Source: Bacteriovoracaceae bacterium (GTDB lineage Bacteria > Bdellovibrionota > Bacteriovoracia > Bacteriovoracales > Bacteriovoracaceae). Taken from it: a stretch of 38,548 bases of DNA. A program made the position numbers and the translations under genes. This document shows, piece by piece, positions 33,729-38,548 of the stretch; the first letter of the stretch is position 1, and every line of letters starts with the position of its first letter. The stretch lies in assembly GCA_016784965.1 (NCBI GenBank), contig JADHTQ010000043.1, positions 1 to 38,548 of the forward strand, in the 5' to 3' direction. The notes under the pieces were generated by a model, which saw only the letters and a list, made by a program, of their open reading frames with translations, did no database searches and had not been told where the DNA came from.

Positions 33729-34958
33729 TTATGAATTTTTAACACGTTTTAGATCAATTAGGGAGAATACATTGTCAAAACTTTGTACTTCTTCACCTTT
33801 AATTGATCTTACATGTTGCATAATCTTTTCAGATACTTCTTTTTGATCGTCCTCATTGCATTTTGAATAATGATCAGCGAGTTTAATATCCTTGTGTCCT
33901 GTCATAGCTATAACGGCGTCCAGGCCACCGCCAACTTTACGAGCAAGCTTCGCCATACCATGCCTGAGAATATGGGTTCCGGAGTAAGGAATTCCACTTT
34001 TCCTCTGTGCGCCTCGGTAATTAATTTGAATCGTGCCGTAATTGAGAGGACTGCCTTCCACATGAAACACAAAATCATTTCCTTCAATCTGAAATGCCTT
34101 TTGTCGCATAAGAATGTCTCGAATTTCATCGGTGATATAACACACTCGGGTTTCCTTATTTTTCGGAAAAGGTTTGAGTTCAACAAAAGTTTTATTGGTC
34201 ATGCACCAAATACAAGTTTGCTTGATCAGCATTCTTCTATTTTTCAAATCAACATTTTCCCATTGAAGTCCTGCGATTTCTCCGACTCGGCCAGCAGTAT
34301 AAAACTGCATTTAAGCGAGATCGCGATACAAGGGTTTTAAGTGATCAAAAAACAAAAGAGCATCGTTCAAATCTATCTGCATTTTTTTGTCTGGTAGTGC
34401 TTTAATAAAACCAAGTTTCTTGTGTTTCCTTTTGATTGGATTGGTTAAATGCAGGGCCTCTTGTTCAAACTCTTCGCTTTCCTTATACCAATTAAAAATT
34501 GTCACAAAGAGATTGAGTTCATTGTTCAAATTACAACGTCTAGCATGTCCCCGCCTTGAACCATCATAAAACTCAGAGGTATAGTAATCGACTAACTTGT
34601 TAACCCATTTTGTTACTTTCGATGGTGTAATTTGATCCATCGGAAGATGCTCAATTGATTTCCAAGGTGTATACCTTCTGTGCCAAATGGCCTTGGTGGT
34701 TGTTGCCAAAGTTCTAAAGTGAACTGTTTGCATTGTTTCCCAAACTTCTTTCAAAGTGGAATAGTTAGATTGATCTTTTTCTATTTTGGTACCGTTGAAT
34801 TTCTTGCGCCAAACTTTAGCATCATAAAGGCTTGAAAAAGTCTCTTGGAACTCTTTCCCCTTGATCTTTTTGCGTGCCATGTATCTGCCAGTAGGTTTAT
34901 GTTTATAAACTCCTGGTGTACCTGTTAGCTTGCGATAATCTGCTTTGCTCATTTTCAT
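33729..34958 (-). pseudogene. tyrosine recombinase (phage integrase), split by an in-frame stop
   Basis: The reading frame stays the same across a TAA at 34311-34313, giving 215 + 193 residues. The N-terminal part holds the arm/core-binding region; the C-terminal part has catalytic Arg (AGRVGEIAGLQW), Lys, HILRHGMA (His-x2-Arg), TGHKDIKLADHYSKC (Gly-His and Tyr). The break is LA-stop-MQFYTAGR, where a Leu (TTA) or Gln (CAA) codon would give a normal integrase. A TAAATG overlap could allow re-start, so residual activity as two pieces is conceivable. AAGGAG precedes the ATG at 34952 better than the first ATG at 34958. It overlaps the excisionase-like gene by 4 nt and shows the element may be fixed in place. 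Confidence 0.85.
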
Positions 34959-35179
34959 TCTCCTTTAAGCCAAGATAAAATCTCGCAAGGAATGAAAAAA
35001 AGCCTTTTGCCACGTTTTCTGTAGGGAATGATTCCATTACTAACTAAGTTATAAATGGTTCCCTTTTTGTATGCAGTAAATTTGCATACCTCATCTATCG
35101 TCCATATTAAATTTTCAAAGAGCAATTTAGTATTACACATCTCGTGATTTATACACTGAACGTTGTTAACTGCCACCAT
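34955..35179 (-). CDS. excisionase-like helix-turn-helix protein
   Basis: 74 residues. The C-terminal 50, LIWTIDEVCKFTAYKKGTIYNLVSNGIIPYRKRGKRLFFIPCEILSWL in outline, match the HTH_17/MerR-like excisionase family (TxxEVxxxxxxxxxTIYxLxxxGxIPxxxxG). Such proteins direct the recombinase toward excision or act as small regulators. AGGAG lies 8 nt before the ATG. It overlaps the broken integrase by ATGA. The GGAGAATTTGA leader is duplicated upstream (12-bp repeat at 35181-35192 and 35204-35215). Confidence 0.75.
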   Translation of the reverse strand: MVAVNNVQCINHEMCNTKLLFENLIWTIDEVCKFTAYKKGTIYNLVSNGIIPYRKRGKRLFFIPCEILSWLKGE

Positions 35180-35850: not shown

Positions 35851-36708
35851 TTATTTTATCTCTAGAGATGCAAGCAGGTCAGAGGACCATTTATTTTGCT
35901 GAATAATAAACTTATTCGCATATCGGTCTTTATATTTTTTGTGAATGGTGAAGTATTTTGAGTGACCAAATATAAACTGCCATTTCATGGTTCTTGAAAA
36001 CAGACAAGCAGCAACGACATCAATTTCATCTAACTTGTAGAATCTTTGCTTTTTAGTATCACCATCATCGTCAGTAGAGTTTCTTGTCCTTTGAAAATCA
36101 ATAGAAAGAGGATGTTCATCAAATTGTTGAATAAATGTATCAATATTGATTTTAGAAACATCGCTCTCCTTGATCAATGAAGTGCTAAATTCATATCTTG
36201 GAATACCTGATTCCCGTAATTCTTGTGGGAAAAACTTCAGAAGTTCTGTACTTGTTTTTGCTTTTTCTATTAGAATGACCTCAAGTAAATCATTCAGTGA
36301 GTTAATCCCTTTATCTGTTTCAATGATGATCCCTTTTTGTGCCATTGACTTAAAGGTTTTTAAAAGCCAATTTTCCTGTAAATAATTGTTCCTTACAAGA
36401 AATTGAATATACGAGGGGAGTATTTTTTTTGTTGAAGAATTAATTACTTGAATATTTTTACATTCGAGAGATATTGTCTTTCCATCATTCAAAGTAACAT
36501 AAAAATCTTTATCAAAGTCGCCGCTGGCCCCTGTGAAGCTCTTAATCTTGCCGTCATTTCGATATTGGATAAGAAGATGTTCTAAATGTTTTTCAGCGAC
36601 AGCTCCTTTGACTGCCATATAGGCCCTTGGATTTTTGGTGAATACTTCTGCAAGGTCCTGCTCAGAAAGCCCAGTTAGTTTTTCAAGAGTTATACTATTC
36701 TTTGCCAT
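35851..36708 (-). CDS. restriction endonuclease of a type II system
   Basis: 285 residues from the ATG at 36708, with GGA 6 nt before it; a longer frame from 36747 overlaps the regulator more. A PD-(D/E)xK-type core is visible near residues 70-95: GDFDKDFYVTLNDGKTISLECKN, where Asp and Glu-x-Lys would bind metal. The rest is helical and unrecognised. It overlaps the Xre-type regulator by 14 nt and is divergent from the m5C methyltransferase, the classic arrangement of a restriction gene. The specificity cannot be read from the sequence. Confidence 0.75.
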   Translation of the reverse strand: MAKNSITLEKLTGLSEQDLAEVFTKNPRAYMAVKGAVAEKHLEHLLIQYRNDGKIKSFTGASGDFDKDFYVTLNDGKTISLECKNIQVINSSTKKILPSYIQFLVRNNYLQENWLLKTFKSMAQKGIIIETDKGINSLNDLLEVILIEKAKTSTELLKFFPQELRESGIPRYEFSTSLIKESDVSKINIDTFIQQFDEHPLSIDFQRTRNSTDDDGDTKKQRFYKLDEIDVVAACLFSRTMKWQFIFGHSKYFTIHKKYKDRYANKFIIQQNKWSSDLLASLEIK

Positions 36709-36931
36709 TTTTATCCATTTTCCATTCAAAATACTTGGTGGGGTCAATATTTAAAGCGGTAGCAATTTCAGAAATCATTTTAAGTGTTGCGTTATATTCA
36801 GGGCGAGTAGCAATCGACTTTAACGTGTCTGATGAAATACTGGTCATCTGGGCCAGTTCTTCATAGGTTAAATGAAGTCCTGTCTTTGCCTCGTAGGCCT
36901 GCATTACATTTTTTAAATCAAACTTAAGCAT
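36695..36931 (-). CDS. Xre-type regulator, likely controller (C) protein of the restriction system
   Basis: 78 residues. A helix-turn-helix of the Cro/C1 type spans about 20-65 (LTYEELAQMTSISSDTLKSIATRPEYNATLKMISEIATAL). The length and position (just before and overlapping the nuclease gene, divergent from the methyltransferase) fit the C proteins of PvuII-like systems. These delay nuclease expression until the host DNA is methylated. GAGG precedes the ATG by about 5 nt. The dyad at 36941-36957 is a candidate binding site. Confidence 0.75.
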   Translation of the reverse strand: MLKFDLKNVMQAYEAKTGLHLTYEELAQMTSISSDTLKSIATRPEYNATLKMISEIATALNIDPTKYFEWKMDKNGKE

Positions 36932-37035: not shown

Positions 37036-38220
37036 ATGATTAGAAAAAATCTCAAGAAAGTAATTAGTCTTTACACAGGTGCTGGAGGACTTGATTATGG
37101 AGTGGAAGCTGCAGGTTTTGATACCGCAGTGGCAGTTGAAATGGATAAATGGTGTTGTAAAACATTAAGATATAACCGTGATTGGCCTGTTATTGAAGAT
37201 AAGATTGAGAATGTAGATAGTGAAACCATATTAAAAACAGCAAATCTAAAAAAGGGTGAAGCTGGGCTATTAATTGGAGGCCCTCCATGTCAGCCATTTT
37301 CAAAAGCAGGGTATTGGAGAGATGGGGATGCTAAAAGGCTAAATGATCCTCGATCAAATACACTTAACCAATATATGCGAGTCTTAGAAGACACTCTTCC
37401 CCATGCTTTTATTTTAGAAAATGTTTTTGGACTTGCCTATAAAGGGAAAGATGAGGGCCTTAGATATCTTGAAAATACAGTTCAAAAAATAAATGAACGG
37501 AATAATACTAATTATACTTTTAAATGGAAGGTTATAAATACGGCACACTTTGGAGTTTCTCAAATTAGAGAACGTGTTTTTATAATTGGATCTAGAGATG
37601 GTTACGAGTTTGATTTTCCAGAAGCTCGATTCTTCCCTAAAAATGAAGATAATCCAATGTTAGAAATAGAAGGTAAAACTTTTAGAACTGCTTGGGATGC
37701 TATCGGTGATCTTGTTCCAGAAGAAGAAACTCACCATGAATCTGAAGTGGGTGGTAAATGGGGCGCATTGCTTCCTTCAATACCTCCAGGAGAAAATTAT
37801 CTCTATCATACAGAAAGAGGTAGTGGGGAACCTCTGTTTAAGTGGCGTTCAAGATATTGGAGCTTTTTATTAAAGCTTCATCCAGATAAACCAAGTTGGA
37901 CAATCCAAGCACAACCAGGAACAGCTATCGGCCCTTTTCATTGGAATAACAGAAGACTAACAATGAGAGAGATGGCCAGAATTCAGACCTTCCCAGATGA
38001 TGTTGAAGTTCTAGGTGGAAATTCTAATGTTCAAAAGCAGATTGGAAATGCAGTTCCTTCTGCTATTGGTGAACTTCTTGGTAAAGAAATTAGAAAACAA
38101 TTTTTTGATGAAAGAGTGAGTTCAAAGAAGTTGAAACTCGTTCCTAATTATAATGAGGATAAGTTTCAAGTTAATTTTATGAAGAGGATTCCTAAAGAAT
38201 ACAGGGAGTTAATTCAGTAA
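37036..38220 (+). CDS. DNA (cytosine-5-)-methyltransferase
   Basis: 394 residues. m5C methyltransferase protecting the host from the adjacent nuclease. Conserved motifs: I LYTGAGGLDYGVEAAGF, IV GGPPCQPFS with catalytic Cys, VI ILENVFG, VIII QIRERVFIIG, IX NRRLTMREMARIQTFPDD and X QKQIGNAVPSAIGELLGKEI. The target-recognition part lies around 230-310 (KWGALLPSIPPGENYLYHTE, WTIQAQPGTAIGPFHWN). Its stop overlaps the ATG of the next, truncated reading frame by one base (TAATG). The ribosome site is weak. Confidence 0.92.
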   Translation: MIRKNLKKVISLYTGAGGLDYGVEAAGFDTAVAVEMDKWCCKTLRYNRDWPVIEDKIENVDSETILKTANLKKGEAGLLIGGPPCQPFSKAGYWRDGDAKRLNDPRSNTLNQYMRVLEDTLPHAFILENVFGLAYKGKDEGLRYLENTVQKINERNNTNYTFKWKVINTAHFGVSQIRERVFIIGSRDGYEFDFPEARFFPKNEDNPMLEIEGKTFRTAWDAIGDLVPEEETHHESEVGGKWGALLPSIPPGENYLYHTERGSGEPLFKWRSRYWSFLLKLHPDKPSWTIQAQPGTAIGPFHWNNRRLTMREMARIQTFPDDVEVLGGNSNVQKQIGNAVPSAIGELLGKEIRKQFFDERVSSKKLKLVPNYNEDKFQVNFMKRIPKEYRELIQ

Positions 38221-38291
38221 TGAAAGTTTCAAGTATAGATAAGGATATAAAATCAATTCTTGAAAGTGGTTATTATGTACCCTTGCGGTGA
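38220..38291 (+). pseudogene. truncated DUF262-like reading frame
   Basis: ATG at 38220 overlaps the methyltransferase stop (TAATG), so it was a coupled third gene of the system. It reads 23 residues ending IKSILESGYYVPLR. The start of DUF262 proteins is typically IKxILxSxYYxIPxFQRPYSW, so this looks like the first 20 residues of one. The frame ends in TGA inside the 18-bp repeat at 38277-38294, i.e. the gene was cut at this junction. GmrSD-type DUF262 proteins act on modified DNA. The identity rests on few residues. Confidence 0.45.
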
Positions 38292-38294
38292 ATC
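38277..38294 (+). repeat. 18-bp repeat copy 1
   Basis: GTACCCTTGCGGTGAATC, one base different from the other two copies (C for T at position 4), followed by TGC as is copy 3. It lies exactly where the DUF262-like frame ends. Confidence 0.85.
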
Positions 38295-38297
38295 TGC

Positions 38298-38432
38298 TTA
38301 ATTTATCATATCTTCTGGTTTAAAGTTCCATGGGAGATATTTTTCGCTATTTTGCTTTACATCTTCTTTGTTTTTTTGCAACCACACTAAAGTATCCTTG
38401 CGGTGAATCGTATCCTTGCGGTGAATCTGCAT
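38298..38432 (-). CDS. 44-residue ORF containing two repeat copies; possible transposase tail
   Basis: ATG at 38432 begins MQIHRKDTIHRKDT; each 18-bp repeat encodes IHRKDT in frame. The rest (LVWLQKNKEDVKQNSE then KYLPWNFKPEDMIN) ends with TAA at 38298. The LPWNF ending recalls the C-terminus of IS66-type transposases (LLPWxW), so this may be a transposase fragment rather than a real gene. No ribosome site is seen. The stop lies just before copy 1 of the repeat. Confidence 0.3.
   Translation of the reverse strand: MQIHRKDTIHRKDTLVWLQKNKEDVKQNSEKYLPWNFKPEDMIN
38392..38427 (+). repeat. 18-bp repeat copies 2 and 3 in tandem
   Basis: GTATCCTTGCGGTGAATC occurs at 38392-38409 and at 38410-38427 with no spacer. 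Together with copy 1 they frame a 97-bp segment (38295-38391). Three copies with one spacer do not make a CRISPR array. Confidence 0.9.
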
Positions 38433-38480
38433 AAAATTTACTTAATTCTGTGATTTAATGCCTCTTAAGTGAGGTGAACT

Positions 38481-38548
38481 ATGGATTTGAAAAAACTCTC
38501 TCAAGATATAGCAATTTGGCGACAAAACAAAAACTTTAGAAGTGAAAG
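38481..38548 (+). CDS. 5' end of a probable mobile-element accessory gene (partial)
   Basis: ATG at 38481, with GAGGTG 6 nt before it, reads MDLKKLSQDIAIWRQNKNFR and runs off the window edge. The pattern WRxNKxFRSE resembles small proteins that precede IS66-type transposase genes. The assignment rests on about 22 residues, but a clear ribosome site and start codon make the gene itself likely. Confidence 0.5.
   Translation, partial: MDLKKLSQDIAIWRQNKNFRSE

Follow-up and report, generated by a model that had tools for sequence, protein, structure and literature searches.

Comparison of the contigs of this genome with one another and with those of related bacteria shows that the 18-bp repeat next to the methyltransferase gene of this Bacteriovoracaceae bacterium is, so far as such comparison can tell, the outer part of a terminal inverted repeat of about 25 bp that belongs to a multicopy insertion sequence (IS) of the IS66 family. 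Among the options raised in the original prediction, that of a novel repeat family is rejected, because every copy of the repeat in the genome is an IS66-family terminal inverted repeat and all of them are ends of one IS; that of an insertion endpoint is supported, the repeat marking the IS insertion that cuts the small open reading frame (ORF) behind the methyltransferase. The arrangement almost certainly reflects an IS66-family inverted repeat, with one copy of the element in the ORF, a second copy seemingly nested in the first and a contig break in the unassembled interior. The features involved lie at the end of the window (the whole 38,548-nucleotide stretch analysed), which is also the end of the contig (C111, 38548 bases):

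37036 to 38220, plus strand: intact C-5 cytosine DNA methyltransferase of 394 aa (PF00145, E=2.6e-57; TIGR00675 dcm, 165 bits, over the cut-off).
38220 to 38276, plus strand: 5' stub of 19 codons, MKVSSIDKDIKSILESGYY, from an ORF that overlaps the methyltransferase stop and is cut by the IS; no homologue found.
38269 to 38276, plus strand: GTTATTAT, the 8 bp that the first insertion would have duplicated at its target, by analogy with the 8-bp duplication of the related element L040 (see below).
38277 to 38301, plus strand: right terminal inverted repeat (IRR) of element copy 1, this copy lying on the minus strand; identical to the IRR at the ends of contigs C42, C48 and C78.
38277 to 38391, minus strand: right end of IS66-family copy 1, a fragment of 115 bp that is 100% identical along its length to three other copies.
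38298 to 38390, minus strand: last 30 codons and stop of a TnpC-type transposase, LVWLQKNKEDVKQNSEKYLPWNFKPEDMIN; the C-terminus, extended from C42, matches related genomes.
38392 to 38409, plus strand: extra 18-bp copy of the left-end inverted repeat (IRL), truncated before TGC, as seen from repeat comparison.
38410 to 38548, plus strand: IRL, leader and opening codons of the first ORF of IS66-family copy 2, which together make up its left end; 138-139 bp identical to C84 and C94.

Within the window, there are three exact copies of GTAYCCTTGCGGTGAATC, starting at 38277, 38392 and 38410, against a chance expectation of 0.02 (by shuffling, with up to 3 mismatches). The first of these (38277-38294) begins with GTACCC; the second and the third (38392-38409 and 38410-38427), which the original prediction had correctly placed in tandem, are identical, abut directly and both begin with GTATCC. 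The real repeat is about 25 bp long, not 18 bp, as the first and third copies both extend as TGC(T/A)TAA; 18 bp is the length of the incomplete middle copy only, which is cut to that size by the third copy. There are eight occurrences of the core CCTTGCGGTGAATC in the genome (4.6 Mb, 126 contigs), of which the window contains three and C42, C48, C78, C84 and C94 one each; all 38 relatives searched lack it. Looking for the repeat elsewhere in the genome, as had been proposed, thus leads to five further places, all of them IS ends. An inverted pair, 38168-38185 and 38426-38443, reaches from the end of the methyltransferase into the IS and is taken as a chance occurrence.

All five copies outside the window, together with the third copy inside it, sit 119-121 bases from a contig end. 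Two classes can be told apart by the DNA on the inner side of the repeat, with no differences between contigs within a class; the outward flanks are all different. The right-end class (GTACCC...TGCTTAA; inward sequence GTACCCTTGCGGTGAATCTGCTTAA...) includes C42, C48 and C78 as well as window positions 38277-38391 (115 bp identical) and reads into the transposase C-terminus; the left-end class (GTATCC...TGCATAAA; inward sequence GTATCCTTGCGGTGAATCTGCATAAA...) includes C84 and C94 along with window positions 38410-38548. The terminal inverted repeat shared by both classes comprises 25 bp with 2 mismatches and is found across six contigs, that is, in multiple genomic contexts. Judged by these identities, a single multicopy mobile element contributes its right end to one class and its left end to the other, and assembly halted at both; the earlier suggestion of mobile-element ends at the repeat is borne out by the presence of an IS66-family right end and left end there. 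The five other contigs stop 137-139 bases into the element, and the contig of the window ends 139 bp inside it because the element interior is repeated and was left unassembled. No 8-bp duplications pair between the junctions in this genome, in which no two junctions of one copy were both assembled. At the C84 end (L004), a 14-bp unit, TGATCGGTTTGAAG, is present three times in tandem directly against the IS left end.

The assignment to the IS66 family comes from the protein that is encoded at the right end. Read on the other strand, this DNA encodes AGVNIFDYLVWLQKNKEDVKQNSEKYLPWNFKPEDMIN followed by a stop, the last 38 residues (extended from C42) of the transposase, which by themselves have no Pfam match and which match seven other genomes of the same bacterial family with up to 72% identity. 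The best complete match is a 531-aa open ORF in contig G043:C7 (L040) that hits PF03050 DDE_Tnp_IS66 with E=9.1e-44, exceeds the cut-off of NF033517 (IS66 transposase) and adjoins a PF05717 TnpB_IS66 protein. No match to PF03050 or the IS66 transposase domain was found in the assembly of the present genome, from which the element interior is absent, and the first ORF of the window element is assembled for no more than its initial 22 codons. The L040 element (L040:1458-3902) is 2445 bp long, carries GTATCCTTGCGGTAAC(T/C)CTGC at both ends in inverted orientation and is flanked on both sides by a perfect 8-bp direct repeat, GATTAACT. It resembles the window element in its inverted repeat (GTATCCTTGCGGTAACYCTGC compared with GTAYCCTTGCGGTGAATCTGC) and in its transposase C-terminus, which is homologous (48% identity over 33 residues), but differs in being a single intact copy, not nested and with a perfect target duplication, and is a related but distinct element. 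In an alignment of nine ends, to which the present genome and relatives contribute (the latter with five genomes of the family), 18 of the first 25 columns are invariant and the pattern GTA..CTTGCGGT.A..CTGC is kept. In Paracoccus, the inverted repeats of IS66-family insertion sequences, among them ISPpa5a (2829 bp) and ISPpa7 (2731 bp), measure 22 to 35 bp and the duplications 8 bp (PMC3281130). The window element similarly has inverted repeats longer than 20 bp, and its relative L040 also shares with the family the 8-bp target duplication, the TnpB_IS66 and DDE_Tnp_IS66 proteins and the 2.4 kb size; there is no difference of principle from the family for an element known here from its ends alone. 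The window copy would have transposed by a DDE-type mechanism. This is a known kind of element, and the locus combines ordinary IS biology with an assembly boundary.

The following chain of events could have produced the locus. Copy 1, on the minus strand, would have landed just past codon 19 of the small ORF that follows the methyltransferase, which would place its IRR at 38277; copy 2, the same element on the plus strand, would then have inserted into copy 1, 115 bp from the right end of the latter. Copy 1 indeed breaks off after 115 bp, at a point where intact copies go on with TAATCGAAG, and is replaced by an oppositely oriented left end; the first ORF of copy 2 starts at 38481 (MDLKKLSQDIAIWRQNKNFRSE..., in the TnpA position), and the contig ends inside copy 2. 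If copy 2 is nested in this manner, what remains of copy 1 on its far side (minus strand) would begin with ACACTAAATAATCG. Among the copies seen in the assembly, no left-end flank matches GTTATTAT as its partner. We infer both the order of events and the nesting, the latter from one junction.

The extra 18-bp IRL tip at 38392-38409 would have come either from a tandem duplication or from another copy that inserted 18 bp inside the IRL. A third nested copy at that distance from the IRL tip would account for a partial IRL of this kind on its left, and the identity and direct abutment of the second and third repeat copies fit this origin; nevertheless, it requires three insertions at one spot, the assembly lacks the partner that it predicts on the right (an IRR and then GGTGAATCTGCATAAA), and a tandem duplication by slippage is simpler, so that we consider the third insertion possible but somewhat doubtful. 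We give very little credence to the further idea that tandem IRL-IRL arrangements are a recurrent product of transposition of the IS66 element, with insertion aimed at its own ends; no tandem inverted repeats were found in other genomes of the same order.

Could the junction itself, with its 115-bp IRR fragment, 18-bp IRL and second IRL, be an assembly chimera of two unrelated IS ends? The genome is a draft in 126 contigs from which the IS interior is missing, and the junction lies 157 bases from the contig end, but the points at which the other five contigs end are those expected for a fixed overlap of about 140 (an inferred length), and the distance from the unique flank (38276) to the third repeat copy (38410) is 133 bases. 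This being less than that overlap, single assembly words should span the junction, and a chimera is unlikely. Even harder to sustain, indeed hardly conceivable, is the view that the repeat is an independent functional sequence (a recombination, regulator-binding or attachment site) and not an IS end. The repeat is short, well conserved and tandem, adjoins a methyltransferase gene and shares the stretch with an integrase gene; yet, each of its copies in the genome borders the outer edge of the same two repeated sequences, its counterparts in relatives flank IS66 genes in inverted orientation, next to an 8-bp duplication, and an exact-pattern search of a large genome collection returned 10 matches in other genomes, all with unrelated flanks and in about the number expected by chance. 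The same pattern had no match in viral contigs.

With the nested IS66-family insertions as the preferred reading, the interrupted ORF can be considered. Its ATG at 38220 overlaps the TAA of the methyltransferase (TAATG), in agreement with the coupling originally described. The frame had been thought to stop exactly where the repeat begins; it actually runs four codons into the repeat (GTA CCC TTG CGG), to a TGA at 38289-38291, and translates as MKVSSIDKDIKSILESGYY-VPLR. The claim that the ORF is cut at the repeat holds, in that the 115-bp IS right end interrupts it and the repeat supplies the stop codon. The DUF262 label of the stub, which is based on N-terminal resemblance, is unconfirmed, no convincing relative having emerged from Pfam, tblastn or genome searches. 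Specifically, neither Pfam nor tblastn against plasmids and phages gave a match for the 19-residue stub, and nothing convincingly related turned up in 369 genomes of the phylum, in 395 genomes of another group, in PDB or, using two degenerate patterns, in viral contigs; of the GmrSD_N N-termini from the phylum with which it was compared, over 19 residues only, none fits clearly better than shuffles. No GmrSD_N match in the assembly represents the remainder of the cut ORF; the single such match is an intact protein in C66, beside a Dnd cluster. The latter (L051, G000:C66, 5407-11942) is a DNA phosphorothioation cluster in which DndC, DndD and DndE exceed the NCBIfam cut-offs; a cysteine desulfurase was recognized in it by inspection, and the GmrSD_N protein adjoins it along with helicase/ATPase-like genes.

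The gene that follows the methyltransferase in relatives, where a full-length DUF262 gene had been anticipated, gives a divided answer: a GmrSD_N/DUF262 gene does follow a methyltransferase 77% identical to that of the window in genome G048, but in G249 a methyltransferase with 89% identity is followed by a different ORF, SIR2-like by inspection. Given that the partner genes after the methyltransferase vary in this way, it is plausible that the cut ORF was a restriction-type partner of the methyltransferase. The G249 methyltransferase (L053, G249:C427) comes from a genome that shares the phylum but is placed in another family, and 89% identity across families suggests recent horizontal transfer. 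Divergent from the methyltransferase in the window (35851-36931, minus strand) are a protein of about 298 aa and a 78-aa HTH-like ORF. The ~298-aa protein has no Pfam or NCBIfam match and, by inspection, contains a nuclease-like stretch, GDFDKDFYVTLNDGKTISLECKN; on the same basis, the two could possibly be the restriction enzyme and the controller of a type II system. Farther upstream, the tyrosine integrase (33729-34958, minus strand) is a single frame broken by one in-frame TAG, between DLA and MQFYT, and a small helix-turn-helix-like ORF (34955-35179) lies directly upstream of it.

The IS reading accounts for both the contig break and the truncated gene beside the methyltransferase, and it adds little beyond annotation. 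It also serves as a warning that short tandem repeats at contig ends often are transposon ends. As for the organism, the genome carries a multicopy IS66-family element that was probably active recently, its end fragments being 100% identical.
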